From Deltaproteobacteria bacterium (GTDB taxonomy: Bacteria > UBA10199 > SBBF01): a stretch of DNA of 10,039 nucleotides. Each line of letters begins with the position of its first letter. Within the stretch, counting starts at the first letter, position 1. The position numbers and the translations under genes were made by a program. This document shows positions 4,473 through 10,011 of this stretch, piece by piece. The notes beneath the pieces were generated by a model that saw only the letters and a list, made by a program, of their open reading frames with translations, searched no databases and was not told the DNA's origin. The stretch lies in assembly GCA_016207765.1 (NCBI GenBank), contig JACQOY010000025.1, positions 1-10,039 of the forward strand, given 5' to 3'.

Positions 4473-4928
4473 TCACCGCCGTGATTTTGGCTTCTCTTTC
4501 GGTTGGGCCTCGCTTTCCGGAAGGGTTATCATCCCGACCCGTTCGATCCCTGCCTTCTGGCTGATGGCCATCACCTGGACGACGTACCCGTACTCGATTC
4601 CCTTGTCGGCCCGGAGGTAGATTTCCTTTTTTTCCTTGTTTTCAAAAATGGCTCTCAGTTTCTCCTCAAGGGTCTGGATGGTGTAGATGGTGTCCCTGTC
4701 ATCCCCCAGAAAGATTTTTCCCTCATTGTCGATGGCCACGATGAAATCCTCCTTGGTGGCCGAAACCGCCGCGGCGTTCACCTCCGGCAGATCGATGTCG
4801 ACCCCCTGTTGCAAAAGGGGCGCGGCCACCATGAAGATGATCAGGAGAACCAGCATAATGTCCACGAGGGGCACGATGTTTATTTCGGCAAGGGCCGTTT
4901 GTCCGGCGCCGTGATGTTGAAGCTTCAT
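4473..4928 (-). CDS. tolR: TolR/ExbD family proton-channel subunit
   Basis: Inner-membrane component that, with TolQ, uses proton motive force to drive the TolA arm. 151 aa: a short cytoplasmic start, one transmembrane helix at about 18-40 in the segment INIVPLVDIMLVLLIIFM with the essential membrane Asp at D23, then a periplasmic ExbD/TolR domain to about 138 (ending in AGIERVGMIT, a typical TolR close) and a basic tail. The ATG overlaps the tolQ stop as ATGA, and AGGAGG at 4944-4939 lies within the end of tolQ, 10 nt before the start. ExbD-like naming is possible, but the tolB neighbour favours TolR. Confidence 0.93.
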   Translation of the reverse strand: MKLQHHGAGQTALAEINIVPLVDIMLVLLIIFMVAAPLLQQGVDIDLPEVNAAAVSATKEDFIVAIDNEGKIFLGDDRDTIYTIQTLEEKLRAIFENKEKKEIYLRADKGIEYGYVVQVMAISQKAGIERVGMITLPESEAQPKEKPKSRR

Positions 4929-5632
4929 GAGGCGATTTCCTCCTCAATTTTCGAAACGAGATCGTCGGAAAAGAGGTCCATCATTTTGATGACGATTTTG
5001 ATCCGGTGAACAAAGTGGTTATAGGCGATAACGGCCGGAATGGCGGCCGCCAAGCCGATGGCGGTGGCGATAAGCGCCTCCGAAATATAGGGCCCCACGG
5101 TGGCCAAAGACGAGGAACCCGCCTTTCCAATGGCCCAGAAGGCGGTGAGGATCCCCCAGACCGTTCCAAACAGGCCGATAAACGGGGCGGCGGAGGCGGT
5201 GGTGGCCAGAAAAGGGGTGTATTGTTCGAGTTTGTAGATTTCTTCCTCACGGGTTTGGGCCAGACGCTGGACAATGGAATCACGTTCCAACTGGCCTGTT
5301 TTTCCCCTCTTTTTAAGCAGGGGGGCTACCTGCATGGCGACCTGATAAATCTCGTAGAGCGGACCCGATCGAACCCCTTTTTGATTGACCACATCCTGAA
5401 GCGATTTGGACTGGGAGAAGGCGTTCCAGAACGACTGGGAGTCCCCCTGGGCCTGTTTTACCTGGCGATATTTGTAGAAAATGATCGCCCAACTCACGAT
5501 TGAGAAGAACATGAGAACCAAAAGGGTGAATTTGACAATTGGATCGGCATCCAAAACGAGGCTCAAGAAACTTTTCTCCTGAAGCGTTGCTTCCGCTTCA
5601 ATTTGGGCCAATAGGGGGAACAGATGCAACAT
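4925..5632 (-). CDS. tolQ: TolQ/ExbB family proton-channel subunit
   Basis: MotA/TolQ/ExbB-family inner-membrane protein forming the proton-driven motor with TolR. 235 aa: a periplasmic N-terminus, a first transmembrane helix at about 32-53, a cytoplasmic loop at about 55-140 with LEQYTPFLATTASAAPFIGL leading into helix 2 (FIGLFGTVWGIL), then helix 3 at about 182-206 in the segment ISEALIATAIGLAAAIPAVIAYN. These are the hallmark family motifs. AAAGGAG at 5647-5641 sits 8 nt before the ATG and is the best ribosome site in the operon. It is the first gene after the promoter at 5923-5950 and so has an unusually long, hairpin-filled leader of about 280 nt. Confidence 0.94.
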   Translation of the reverse strand: MLHLFPLLAQIEAEATLQEKSFLSLVLDADPIVKFTLLVLMFFSIVSWAIIFYKYRQVKQAQGDSQSFWNAFSQSKSLQDVVNQKGVRSGPLYEIYQVAMQVAPLLKKRGKTGQLERDSIVQRLAQTREEEIYKLEQYTPFLATTASAAPFIGLFGTVWGILTAFWAIGKAGSSSLATVGPYISEALIATAIGLAAAIPAVIAYNHFVHRIKIVIKMMDLFSDDLVSKIEEEIAS

Positions 5633-5669
5633 AGTTTTGACTCCTTTCGGTTCGCTGATTTAAAAGTCG

Positions 5670-5910
5670 GTAACTACTCACCCCTTAAGGGGTGAGGTTC
5701 TTTTAGCCGGGGGCTTCTAGCCCCCGGGAAAATGTCAGGCAAAATGATTTTTGCCCTGGAAGGGCAAGGTCAATTATCGTTAACGTCGCCCTTTCAGGGC
5801 TGTTGATGTTTTGTTTCATTTCCATTCCGGGGGTTTTCACCCCCGGCTCAAGGAACTTGCCCCTCTGGGGCCTATTTTTTCTCTACTTTTTGGGGCGTCT
5901 GAGTAGTTAC
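5670..5910. repeat. 241-base six-hairpin element closed by an 11-bp inverted repeat
   Basis: A non-coding block bounded by GTAACTACTCA (5670-5680) and its exact reverse complement TGAGTAGTTAC (5900-5910). Inside are six near-perfect hairpins. (1) A 20-nt palindrome at 5677-5696. (2) CCGGGGGCT / AGCCCCCGG at 5707-5727, loop TCT. (3) TTGCCCT / AGGGCAA at 5751-5767, loop GGA. (4) GCCCT / AGGGC at 5788-5800, loop TTC. (5) CCGGGGGT / ACCCCCGG at 5827-5846, loop TTTC. (6) GCCCC / GGGGC at 5859-5871, loop TCT. The block contains no plausible gene. Such clusters of different small GC hairpins resemble palindrome-rich non-autonomous elements of the REP/RAYT or IS200/IS605 kind, which are moved by a transposase in trans; that identity is inference. 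As RNA in the minus direction it is the tolQ leader. Confidence 0.8.
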
Positions 5911-5922
5911 AAAAGCTGGGGA

Positions 5923-5950
5923 ATTATAGTGAGGCGCCCCCAAAAATCAA
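5923..5950 (-). promoter_or_regulatory. Sigma70-type promoter for the tol operon
   Basis: On the minus strand, TTGATT (5950-5945) and a perfect TATAAT (5928-5923) are separated by 16 nt. The -35 box begins just after the murU stop codon. Initiation is expected near 5917-5914, a few bases upstream of the first arm of the 11-bp inverted repeat. The whole hairpin block would then be leader RNA for tolQ. Confidence 0.65.
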
Positions 5951-6764: not shown

Positions 6765-7901
6765 TTATTTGATTTCTTTCAAGGTGGCCTCAAAAAATTT
6801 CTCGATTTCCTTCTTCTTGGGCAATTCCACCTGATACTTTGATACGAACAATTTGTTATTCATGCCCGCTAAGGCGTATTCGACCAACGCACGATTCTTT
6901 TTGGTGCATAGCAAAATGCCGATGGGGGGATTGTCGTCCTCAGCCAGTTCCTGTTTTGCGTAGTAACCTACGTAGGTGTTCAATTGACCCAAATATTCGT
7001 GCTTAAATCCATCGAGCTTGAGTTCGATCAAAATATGGCATTTGAGAATTCGGTGATAAAACACCAAGTCCACAAAGAAATATTCTCCACCGATGTTGAT
7101 GCGCTTTTGCCGGGCCTTGAAACAAAAACCATGGCCGAGTTCCAAGATAAATTCCTTCAATTTATCAAGCAGGGCATCTTCAAGGTTGGACTCACCCATA
7201 ACTTCCTTTGCCTTCAGTCCCAAAAATTCAAAAATGTAGGGATCACGTATGGAGAGTTCAGGCGAATTGGGTTCACTTTTCTTGTGCGTCAAAGACAAAA
7301 GCCTCTTTTTGTTCTTCGACAGTCCCGTTCTTTCAAAAAGAAGGGAATTGATCTGACGTTTCAATTCACGAACCGACCACCTGCCACGAATGCATTCAAT
7401 TTCGTAAAAAGCCCGCTTTAGCGGGTCGTCCAACGAAATCAATTGTTCCAAGTGTGTGTACGAAAGATTTTCAATCACCTTATCTGGATCTGTTTGCATT
7501 TTTGCGGTCACTGACCGCACTTTTTTCCCCACCATCATAGTTTCCGGAAACAAGACCTCAAATTTTGCGGTCAGTGACCGCAAAATTTGAGGGTAAGCCC
7601 GATAAAACAAAGCGTAGTAATAAAGCTGACGGCTACGGCAATTTGAAACCTTCAACTTCTCAAGTTGTTTGCTCAGTTCTAAAAACAAGTTCTTCCCATA
7701 AACTGCCCGATCTGCACCGTGTAGCTCGTAATGCGCAACGTAAAACCCAATCGCCCAGTTGCGCAACGTCAGACTAATATTGACAGCCCGATTCGCTTGA
7801 GAAGCAAAATATTGGTCCGCTTGACGAATGGCGGATACAAGTTGCCCAAAAGTTGGTTTGGGATGTCTTACCGTCAAAGATTGTGTTTTACGTTTTGGCA
7901 T
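6765..7901 (-). CDS. DUF1016 / YhcG-type PDDEXK nuclease family protein
   Basis: 378 aa with the two parts of this family. The DUF1016 N-terminal helical domain (about 15-105) contains the segment NRAVNISLTLRNWAIGFYV and ends in LYYYALFYRAYPQI. The C-terminal PDDEXK nuclease-like domain (about 210-370) has D278 in FFVDLVFYHR and E293-L-K295 in LIELKL as the probable D...ExK site. The linker at about 106-140 carries two copies of R-S-[LV]-T-A-K (108-113, 129-134), encoded by DNA palindromes. Members are common in defence islands and beside restriction systems; the exact function is not established, and no methylase or restriction partner is seen here. The gene overlaps the upstream gene by 14 nt and has a weak ribosome site. 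By eye it is more AT-rich than the tol genes, suggesting transfer. Confidence 0.88.
   Translation of the reverse strand: MPKRKTQSLTVRHPKPTFGQLVSAIRQADQYFASQANRAVNISLTLRNWAIGFYVAHYELHGADRAVYGKNLFLELSKQLEKLKVSNCRSRQLYYYALFYRAYPQILRSLTAKFEVLFPETMMVGKKVRSVTAKMQTDPDKVIENLSYTHLEQLISLDDPLKRAFYEIECIRGRWSVRELKRQINSLLFERTGLSKNKKRLLSLTHKKSEPNSPELSIRDPYIFEFLGLKAKEVMGESNLEDALLDKLKEFILELGHGFCFKARQKRINIGGEYFFVDLVFYHRILKCHILIELKLDGFKHEYLGQLNTYVGYYAKQELAEDDNPPIGILLCTKKNRALVEYALAGMNNKLFVSKYQVELPKKKEIEKFFEATLKEIK
7503..7519. repeat. 17-nt odd palindrome inside the DUF1016 gene (copy 1)
   Basis: TGCGGTCA, a central C, then TGACCGCA: a perfect 8-bp inverted repeat. On the coding strand it spells codons for R-S-V-T-A within the domain linker. 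Its core is the same as that of the larger palindrome centred 63 bases away, apart from the complementary central base. Confidence 0.9.
7556..7592. repeat. 37-nt perfect odd palindrome inside the DUF1016 gene (copy 2)
   Basis: CCTCAAATTTTGCGGTCA, a central G, then the exact 18-nt reverse complement. On the coding strand it encodes Q-I-L-R-S-L-T-A-K-F-E. The centre at 7574 is 63 bases (21 codons) from the centre of copy 1 at 7511, so both copies keep the same reading frame and give the same R-S-x-T-A-K peptide. An 18-bp perfect arm inside a coding gene is far beyond chance and could form a strong cruciform or mRNA hairpin. Confidence 0.95.
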
Positions 7902-8604
7902 TAAGTAGGTCGCCTATCTCATCAATCATTGTTTGCATGGCGGGTTTGCATCGTGTTCTGCTAAAAATTTTAAAGGTCGAAAGATGCGGCAATCTGACAA
8001 TGTCGAGCTTCTTGTCAGTATTGGCTAATCTTTCGATTGAGTAGCTTGTCTTGCCCCAGCCGATTGGTTGCACTTGATCATTATCTTTGCAATACCCACT
8101 AACCGCGGCAATATCTCTTAAATGCCGATTTGTTATGTTACTCATAGTAATGATGACCTTGGGCTCGATGTGGGTAAATATCTTTTTCCATAAAGACACA
8201 GAGAATTGAATGCTCTCCGACTTTCTCTCAAGAGCGCCCCAATTTTTTGATCGAAACGGAACAAGATTGGCAAATAAACTCTTGTTCATCAAAGAAGCAA
8301 CTTCTATCGGCTGTGGGGAGTTCTGTGCAACCAGGTGAAACAATTTTTGGACTTGAATCTGCAATGGACTAGAGCCGGGTTTGCATCCATTCCAGCTTTC
8401 AACTAGAAACGCATTCCCCATTTCAACGCTTGAGCTTGGCGGTTCGTAGGCATCACCGCCGGGGTTCAGTCCGATGAACCACAATTTCGAAGATGGGGAT
8501 AATGTGCGGGCAGATGTATAAAGAAATCTCCAGGATTTTCTGTGTCCTAACTCCAGATAAGCTGACTCTATTTCTTGGCAACAAACTGAGAAAAAATCTT
8601 CCAT
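7888..8604 (-). CDS. Putative uracil-DNA glycosylase-fold protein
   Basis: 238 aa, soluble. The strand-loop LWFIGLNPGGDAY (41-53) resembles the GLNPG-type motif of the Mug/UDG superfamily. NKSLFANLVPFRS (107-119) fits the following N/F-P segment, KVIITMSN (149-156) a later core strand, and VRLPHLSTFKI (203-213) occupies the place of the family's final H-P-S-type motif. Together these suggest a base-excision glycosylase fold. The catalytic and leucine-loop residues are not canonical, so activity on uracil is not assured. The ATG at 8604 lies 12 nt after the stop of the small gene upstream, and its end overlaps the DUF1016 start by 14 nt, so the two are probably made together. The link to a nuclease of a defence-associated family is suggestive, not proof. 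It could also be an uncharacterised family that merely shares the fold. Confidence 0.55.
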   Translation of the reverse strand: MEDFFSVCCQEIESAYLELGHRKSWRFLYTSARTLSPSSKLWFIGLNPGGDAYEPPSSSVEMGNAFLVESWNGCKPGSSPLQIQVQKLFHLVAQNSPQPIEVASLMNKSLFANLVPFRSKNWGALERKSESIQFSVSLWKKIFTHIEPKVIITMSNITNRHLRDIAAVSGYCKDNDQVQPIGWGKTSYSIERLANTDKKLDIVRLPHLSTFKIFSRTRCKPAMQTMIDEIGDLLNAKT

Positions 8605-8967: not shown

Positions 8968-10011
8968 CTACTTGAACTCCGGCAAATATTTGCCGATCAC
9001 CTGCAACAATTCCGCGTATTCTGTCTGTCGCTCCAGCGCCTGTTTCACATATCGAAGCGACGCCGGCACGCTCTTCAAAAACGAATCGTTTTTCTTTACC
9101 GTCTTGATGAATTGAAACCGCCCCGTATCTTTCAGTTTCCGCTGGATCGTGATCAGGTCGAAATCGTTGCGGATCGCCTTGATCTTTGCATGGTAGGGAT
9201 GGTCATTATCAATTTTTTTCACATAAAATTCCTGAAGCCCTTCTATCTCCGCGGGCGACAGCTCGATATACGAATCGCGCAAAAGGGCAACAAGGTCGTA
9301 GAGGAGGGGGCCCATCAGGGCGTCCTGAAAATCGATCAGTCGCAGACTGTCGTTTTGCACCATCAGGTTGCGGCTCTGAAAATCGCGGTGAACAAAGCCT
9401 TGCGGCATTTGGACGATTTTTTTCGTGATGGTGCGGGTCAACTCCGCAAATTTCTTTTTGTCCGTTGCCGGCACCTTGATTTGCAGACGGTCTTCAATCC
9501 CGTATTCCAAAAAATGGTCGAATTCCCAATTGAGAAGGTTAGCGTCGAATGTTCGATAGATGGCGACGCAATCTTTTGGCGGTACGGCACGACTCTTTTT
9601 TTGCAAAAGGGCCAAGAGGTCGAGCGCCTTTTGATACCACGCGGTTCTCTGAGCCGAAGGCAAATCACGAACGGTTTTTTCGAGCGTGACATCGCCCAGA
9701 TCCTCCAGAATCAGGAGGCCGTCTTTTTTGGAATAGGCCAAGATATCCGGAACGGGGAGGGAAAGCGATTTGAGGTAATGTTGAACATTGATAAACGGAA
9801 GCTCATCGATCTGTTTTGATGTCTTGGTGATTTCTTCCGACACCGAGGAAGGGCCGGCCGGCATTTTCATGACCATGAACGTTTTACCGTTGTCGAACCG
9901 GAGCCGGTAATACTCGCGATAGCTGGCATCGCCGGAGAGTTTGTGGAGTTCGAAAGGGCTTAAGGGGATGTTTGTTTGCGATTTCAGCAGGTCGCGGATA
10001 ACCTCATCCAT
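8968..10011 (-). CDS. amgK: AmgK-like N-acetylmuramate/N-acetylglucosamine anomeric kinase (APH fold)
   Basis: Cytoplasmic aminoglycoside-phosphotransferase-fold kinase expected to phosphorylate MurNAc (and GlcNAc) at C1, feeding MurU in a route that bypasses de novo UDP-MurNAc synthesis. 347 aa, full length: N-lobe SGDASYREYYR (26-36), a likely ATP-binding Lys at 49 and ILEDLGD (101-107). The C-lobe has the Brenner motif FVHRDFQSRNLM (206-217; D210, N215), the DFG-equivalent LIDFQDA (225-231) and GPLLYDL (234-240), all as in known AmgK proteins rather than antibiotic kinases. The ATG at 10011 is the first in frame after a stop at 10023-10021; the upstream ribosome site is poor (GCCGGA), so coupling to a gene right of the window is possible. 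In other genomes murU follows directly; here about 2.2 kb of other genes intervene. Confidence 0.85.
   Translation of the reverse strand: MDEVIRDLLKSQTNIPLSPFELHKLSGDASYREYYRLRFDNGKTFMVMKMPAGPSSVSEEITKTSKQIDELPFINVQHYLKSLSLPVPDILAYSKKDGLLILEDLGDVTLEKTVRDLPSAQRTAWYQKALDLLALLQKKSRAVPPKDCVAIYRTFDANLLNWEFDHFLEYGIEDRLQIKVPATDKKKFAELTRTITKKIVQMPQGFVHRDFQSRNLMVQNDSLRLIDFQDALMGPLLYDLVALLRDSYIELSPAEIEGLQEFYVKKIDNDHPYHAKIKAIRNDFDLITIQRKLKDTGRFQFIKTVKKNDSFLKSVPASLRYVKQALERQTEYAELLQVIGKYLPEFK

Follow-up and report, generated by a model that had tools for sequence, protein, structure and literature searches.

Structure of the element in the tol leader

The window, by which we mean the whole stretch of 10,039 nucleotides that was analysed, contains a tolQ gene on its minus strand, and the leader of this gene holds a non-coding element that is separated from the tolQ start codon by 37 nt. 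The features of the locus are as follows.

4925..5632, minus strand: tolQ (MotA_ExbB), whose leader holds the element
5662..5669, plus strand: left flank, AAAAGTCG, taken to be a decayed 8-bp target duplication, equal to 5911-5918 at 6 of 8 positions
5670..5910, no strand assigned: whole element, 241 bp, non-coding, with ends that recur in genomic copies
5670..5682, plus strand: terminal inverted repeat (TIR), short end, GTAACTACTCACC
5678..5695, plus strand: hairpin 1, TCACCCC-TTAA-GGGGTGA
5703..5706, plus strand: TTAG at the foot of hairpin 2, a recurrent TAG box with a presumed guide-like role
5707..5727, plus strand: hairpin 2, CCGGGGG..CCCCCGG, compensated to CCGTAGG..CCTACGG in genome G007
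5753..5765, plus strand: hairpin 3, GCCCT-GGA-AGGGC
5766..5773, minus strand: centre box TTGACCTT, of which TTGACCT is common to the G007 elements (alignment A3)
5788..5800, plus strand: hairpin 4, GCCCT-TTC-AGGGC
5827..5846, plus strand: hairpin 5, mirror of hairpin 2
5859..5871, plus strand: hairpin 6, mirror of hairpin 1, with a terminator-like plus-strand T-run after it
5898..5910, minus strand: terminal inverted repeat, long end, read on the minus strand as GTAACTACTCAGA
5911..5918, plus strand: right flank, AAAAGCTG, taken to be the other copy of the decayed 8-bp target duplication
5923..5950, minus strand: predicted sigma-70 promoter TTGATT-16-TATAAT, facing tolQ

A preliminary description of this DNA had reported perfect 11-nt inverted arms bracketing six separate GC-rich hairpins with loops of 3-4 nt, in 241 bases without a gene. 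The arms are indeed exact (GTAACTACTCA at 5670-5680, TGAGTAGTTAC at 5900-5910), with hairpin 1 sharing 3 nt with the left arm; all six hairpins were located, and none of the open reading frames of at least 80 aa in the listed set overlaps the element. The loops are short as described, in a slightly wider range of approximately 3-6 nt that depends on the inner pairs counted. All six hairpins are present, but the lowest-energy single-strand fold predicted for 5660-5920 pairs half A with half B in one long foldback (-124.2 kcal/mol, z -8.3, with 0/200 shuffles as low); this foldback and six separate hairpins are both possible. The two halves are mirror images of each other, half A scoring 19.5 against the reverse complement of half B compared with a mean of 9.1 and a maximum of 15.5 in 300 shuffles; the alignment spans hairpins 1-2 against 6-5, and hairpins 3 and 4 are mirror partners by reading.

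The promoter scan returned 2 promoter-like sites in 461 bp (0.5 in shuffles), and similar promoter hexamers are seen by eye in G001, which represents one of the two sister genera of the family. Since the element lies just downstream of the predicted tolQ promoter, the tol transcript should carry it as a structured 241-nt foldback leader, which might in turn influence expression. Terminator-like sites numbered four where 1.2 were expected: a single one, within the element (5767-5751), points in the tolQ direction, and the remaining three are on the opposite strand.

Genomic copies and orthologous tolQ sites

A nucleotide search of the element's own genome (G000; 1.89 Mb in 256 contigs, 84% complete) yielded the dispersed copies that the preliminary description had thought worth seeking: five further substantial copies, 82-92% identical over the matched part (C208, 92%; C192, 83%; C65, 82%; C204, 83%; C108, partial, 82%), making six places with the window included and leaving out of the count a 50-bp, 82% match in C26 (L007). 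Three of the copies (C192, C65 and C108) run to a contig end, as repeats often do. Those ends that lie on a contig are GTAAC-like, with a degenerate end in L006 and one interrupted arm in L002, and are of two types. The short end reads GTAACTACTCACCCC in the window; the long end comprises GTAACTACTCAGG and a further 30 nt or so that precede hairpin 6.

The tolQ region is syntenic in both sister genera (G001 and G002) and lacks the element. Structure model R1, built only from the gene-less G000, G002 and G007 copies and containing no Bacteroidota sequence, reported nothing at the G001 and G002 tolQ sites under strict filters; its genome scan scored at most 70 candidates per genome, so that such absences are not firm, and gave a weak match in G020 (E 0.004). 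No exact empty site could be demonstrated, because the intergenic region has diverged. When genome_contigs was scanned for the core pattern, a single contig matched, and with 100% identity over 210 bp it was taken to be from G002 itself. No DNA match to the 241-bp element was found among phages or plasmids at E 1e-5, and the sole gathering-level Rfam match in the window is a tRNA elsewhere, with none at the element. Because there are five more genomic copies, and the element is absent before tolQ in both sister genera, 5670-5910 is mobile DNA rather than a tol-specific RNA.

Terminal repeats of a wider MITE superfamily

A wider MITE superfamily, whose members in G000, G008 and G010 have unrelated cores, has GTAACTACTCA(GG) as its terminal repeat. 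Within G000, GTAACTACTCAGG bounds two non-coding elements with unrelated hairpin cores, one at C11:3951-4110 with duplication TATGCCGC (8/8) and one at C77:14028 with flanks equal at 7/8 positions. The exact 14-mer GTAACTACTCAGGT occurs at six places among 46 genomes of the class, in the same three genomes (reversed control, 1), and every one of these places is a short element bounded by inverted repeats. Mismatched matches were not above chance, numbering 11 in total in G000 at two mismatches (40 for the reversed pattern) and 21 in nine relatives with one mismatch (40 for the control), with only G010 enriched (13 against 3); exact or one-mismatch matches in inverted pairs were therefore used.

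Of the 21 rows of the pair table, 11 were kept as elements of this kind. Flanks of 8 bp are equal at at least six positions in 9 of the 11 paired elements, which becomes 9 of 13 if L085 (211 bp) and the 227-bp L101 pair, of similar size and dropped with one poor arm each, are retained; the kept rows match at 6, 6, 8, 7, 6, 8, 3, 7, 7, 6 and 2 of 8 positions, and the 10 dropped rows at no more than 5. L005 was kept as an established copy despite an arm as divergent as those of the dropped pairs, and its flanks match at 8/8 if a 1-nt shift is allowed. Flank duplication is absent from L080 (3/8), L101 (2/8) and L002 (approximately 2/8, by eye and outside the pair table), and the flanks of the window copy match at 6/8 only. 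The case for an 8-bp target duplication is good for the superfamily and moderate for the window copy.

GTAA ends and an 8-bp duplication are features of the IS66 family, and the superfamily displays both. As the present engine, IS66 was considered and rejected: the carriers G000, G008 and G010 gave 0 IS66 transposase matches, and only G005 and G007 of the 11 genomes gave any. No parent transposase with the same ends was seen among the TIR matches (46 genomes for the exact 14-mer, nine for one mismatch), nor was an autonomous element with GTAAC ends found in the genomes examined. A literature search for the letters of the repeat gave, as judged from titles and the beginnings of abstracts, papers on unrelated subjects only.

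Separately, 15 GTAAC elements were examined for neighbouring frames. In 6 of them (L002, L003, L005, L065, L080 and L095) the TAA of the terminal GTAA provides the stop codon of an adjacent open frame that is 90 codons or longer, and L065 (and L082, by eye) sits at a stop/start junction.

Relatives of the six-hairpin core in the same order

G007, from the same order, contains gene-less elements of 288-316 bp (L108, L110-L113) in which the six-hairpin layout and the centre box TTGACCT recur, with stems CCGTAGG/CCTACGG instead of CCGGGGG/CCCCCGG and with a different TIR, of the GAGCCTATTCGAAAACC type. Alignment A3 comprises eight sequences from G000, G002 and G007 (L109, L110, L111 and L113 were omitted, their segment being identical to that of L112); 95.8% of its cells pair, and five base pairs are changed on both sides. 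These double-sided changes amount to 10 cells, a value reached by 0/500 shuffles, and five such pairs were reached by 31/500; the apparent compensatory changes among eight related sequences are accordingly supportive, not conclusive. The alignment begins with AG and ends with CT, which fits the recurrent TAG box, and TAG, read by eye, also precedes hairpin 2 in L045, L050, L054 and L152.

The 1174-bp element L045 of G007 carries a Y1_Tnp gene and a 66-aa ORF (no Pfam match) between hairpins 3 and 4, and R1 finds the half arrays beside this Y1 gene at E 4e-7 and 4e-6. Locus L044 of G002 begins with a Y1 fragment at the contig start, followed by an array that R1 finds at E 5e-5. Another G002 core, L028 (G002:C71), is bracketed by a 14-bp direct repeat, AATTTGCATTTGAC, and no TIR was detected around it.

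Y1 genes adjoining three-hairpin arrays

The preliminary description had envisaged an IS200-like or RAYT gene in the same genome; none was found in the assembly, which at 84% completeness gave 0 Y1 transposase matches. Among 26 Y1 loci from the order, labelled by motif, four carry Y---Q--HH, 14 Y---NP, four are otherwise class-1-like and four have no label. Hairpin units adjoin the gene in all four Y---Q--HH carriers (L044, L045, L050 and L054). R1 detects the array beside the gene at two of the 26 loci, on both sides in L045 and on one side in L044; the arrays of L050, with inverted hairpin 3/4 partners, and L054, on one side, were judged by eye and have no R1 match. The Y1 proteins encoded beside the arrays contain DHxH, WQ and Y---Q--HH, the complete ones being approximately 150-160 aa long. 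Against the IS200 model (cut-off 55), L045, L050 and L054 score 53, 71 and 58 bits, respectively; with the RAYT model (cut-off 80) the scores of all three are 25-28 bits, and the L044 fragment matches neither.

A mirrored-flank test, covering 24 loci (L055 was too short and L044 not included), gave z above 5 at nine: L045, L050 and the class-2 loci L040, L046, L048, L051, L052, L060 and L062. For L054, with its array on one side only, z was 0.5. The inverted flanks of the class-2 Y1 genes are of another kind than the three-hairpin arrays; those of L040, L046, L048, L051, L060 and L062 are significant, in some cases contain GGGGTCA, and resemble TIRYT/TIRtrons. A hairpin scan (stem at least 6) proved nonspecific, as several other Y1 genes also adjoin hairpins without the three-hairpin layout, and it missed L050 on account of the long loop of the middle hairpin.

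A tblastn search of plasmids with the L050 protein gave, among the matches listed (30 of 443 records), two relatives at 99% coverage, both from Bacteroidota. The gene of Persicobacter sp. JZB09 (CP012861.1, L152) has mirrored arrays on both sides, in the order hairpin, TTAG, hairpin CGATGGGT/ACCCATCG, hairpin with CCCTGAAGGG, gene and then the mirror, with a mirror score of 34 compared with 11-15 in three other records. Bernardetia (NZ_CP147018.1, L151) has a 1.2-like Y1 without a three-hairpin array; the same array stands beside the Y---Q--HH genes of L044, L045 and L152 and not beside that of L151; by eye, several GTTGCAGAGCAAC hairpins of a different type lie upstream of position 1501 in L151. 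L153 and L154 have neither the Y---Q--HH signature nor mirrored arrays, and a search for viral contigs encoding the L050 Y1 gave two pattern matches, of which none was confirmed.

The 200 kb covered of the 632-kb Persicobacter plasmid, together with a single locus on a second replicon, contain one place that has the gene and seven gene-less six-hairpin places, of which two have an altered hairpin 2. R1 finds these elements with a best E of 1.4e-7, with 3.4e-4 for L155 on the other replicon and 0.17 for the weakest copy; a control of 150 kb of the same plasmid (L157-L159) gave nothing under 0.1. A single 13-kb stretch of related sequence contains six of the seven gene-less copies, and local duplication may therefore explain part of their number.

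Proposed origin and alternative explanations

We consider it likely that the element is a non-autonomous composite, in which a gene-less core of the subclass-1.2 Y1 type lies inside a MITE with GTAAC TIRs and an 8-bp duplication. The core (hairpins 1-6) would derive from a TnpA-Y1 subclass-1.2 type of Y1 (HuH) transposon that had lost its gene: two mirrored three-hairpin arrays would have bordered a Y1 gene, the loss of which from between hairpins 3 and 4 would produce the six-hairpin foldback. This core would have come to lie in a GTAAC-type MITE, by enclosure or by insertion, and would since have been copied as that MITE. As the enclosing TIRs are those of an 8-bp-duplication superfamily, copying of the composite to its present sites, the tolQ leader included, would most likely have been the work of a DDE-type transposase acting in trans on the GTAACTACTCA(GG) ends. 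Y1 would thus once have moved the core as single strands, and a DDE enzyme would move the present composite. The preliminary description had offered, as one of two alternatives, a non-autonomous mobile element linked to IS200- or REP-type hairpins, and the six genomic places, the presence of the core beside IS200-like Y1 genes elsewhere and the TIR and target-duplication evidence agree with it; that arms and hairpins belong to different kinds of element had been overlooked.

More tentatively, and with rather less than even confidence, we suggest that subclass-1.2 Y1 proteins are the transposases of cross-phylum foldback transposons with TAG-tagged three-hairpin ends, whose gene-less forms spread in a dual mode, by Y1 and DDE enzymes.

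An unlikely alternative to the composite is that Y1 itself moves the whole unit, arms included, as a TIR-bearing Y1 family with host-variable ends, of which the window copy is a gene-less member. G007 lends this some substance, in that its Y1-bearing (L045) and gene-less forms have one TIR type and the left-end homology starts a few bases from the TIR; at another site in this genome, the L105 contig end repeats 201 bp of the L045 left end, reaching into the Y1 gene, at 99% identity. The GTAAC ends, however, also bound other cores and leave 8-bp duplications, and to our knowledge IS200/IS605 enzymes leave no target duplication. No TIR of this sort was seen by eye at the Persicobacter elements. 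In the available text of PMC6006769, the hairpins that IS200/IS605 enzymes use are subterminal and the circles single-stranded.

A REPIN/BIME of the RAYT type is a still less probable reading. As outlined in the portions of PMC3116915 available, such units resemble the present one in their inverted hairpin pair, dispersed gene-less occurrence and short tag at the hairpin foot, and the copies here do lie mostly beside genes and have TAG at the foot of a hairpin; here, in contrast, there are three hairpins per half, few copies, no RAYT, and a TIR with target duplication. The GTAG/GTGG tag is replaced by TTAG and, on the minus strand at hairpin 5, TGAG in the window, and by CTAG in other copies; copy number is low (six places), there is no Y1 in the own assembly, and the Y1 proteins of L045, L050 and L054 fall far below the RAYT cut-off.

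A leader RNA that regulates the tol operon in cis, conserved before tolQ as the preliminary description had alternatively proposed, would suit a strongly folded element placed between a predicted promoter and tolQ with a tolQ-direction terminator-like site inside, but the absence of the element from the orthologous G001 and G002 sites, the copies at other loci and the lack of an Rfam match make it highly improbable; a secondary recruitment of the element as a tol regulator is conceivable.

Relation to known systems

The proteins adjacent to the arrays, with DHxH, WQ and Y---Q--HH, resemble TnpA-Y1 subclass 1.2, for which Y---Q--HH is the signature (Quentin et al. 2018, PMC6006769). In the available text of that survey, members of the subclass occur mostly in Cyanobacteria and Bacteroidetes, do not have IS properties, are low in copy number, and generally lack IS200-type end structures; these HuH proteins are thereby left with neither a mobile element nor a DNA substrate. 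Here, by contrast, the gene is flanked by three-hairpin arrays, which in L045 and L152 are mirrored, gene-less derivatives exist, and G007 and G002 belong to the window's own order. A literature search confined to titles and the beginnings of abstracts, with most subscription journals outside its range, did not turn up any account of six-hairpin arrays, or of mirrored three-hairpin ones, at genes of subclass 1.2. The arrays, alike in layout in the window's order and in Bacteroidota, are a candidate substrate with gene-less offspring, and the substrate question thereby becomes testable with purified protein and oligonucleotides.

Bacterial MITEs, as characterised in the available parts of PMC3733652 and PMC3116915, are non-coding elements of 70-400 bp with TIRs, duplicated flanks and several copies; the 5670-5910 element likewise is short, non-coding, TIR-bounded and present in several copies, and flank duplication is a further likeness. 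It differs in that its core is related to another transposon class and its TIR is common to MITEs with unrelated hairpin-rich cores. The TIRtrons/TIRYTs are similar in placing a Y1 gene between terminal inverted repeats and in their dispersed TIR families, but the TIRtron motif in the text available, GGGGWSAS, differs from the TIR here (PMC3733652), and TIRYT proteins are assigned to class 2 with Y---NP (PMC6006769, likewise in part), unlike the array-adjacent Y---Q--HH proteins. The nesting of the core in MITEs with TIRs and 8-bp duplications suggests how two unrelated transposition systems could share one passenger.

Other features of the tol leader and the window

The tolQ leader of G001 (L076, 2225-2340) contains a different inverted repeat, which is dispersed, with 23 matches in G001 (itself included) and 3 in G000, suggesting that the tol leader has received different repeats in different genera. 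Further along the window, at 6765-8604, a YhcG/DUF1016 nuclease gene is found together with a gene whose UDG match is below cut-off; this block separates a nucleotidyltransferase gene from the ORF at 8968-10011, and as those two are nearly adjacent in G001 and G002, the block was either inserted in the window or lost there. At 13-1354, the 3' end of a phage-type integrase gene overlaps a tRNA-Gly on the opposite strand, an arrangement common for elements integrated at a tRNA.
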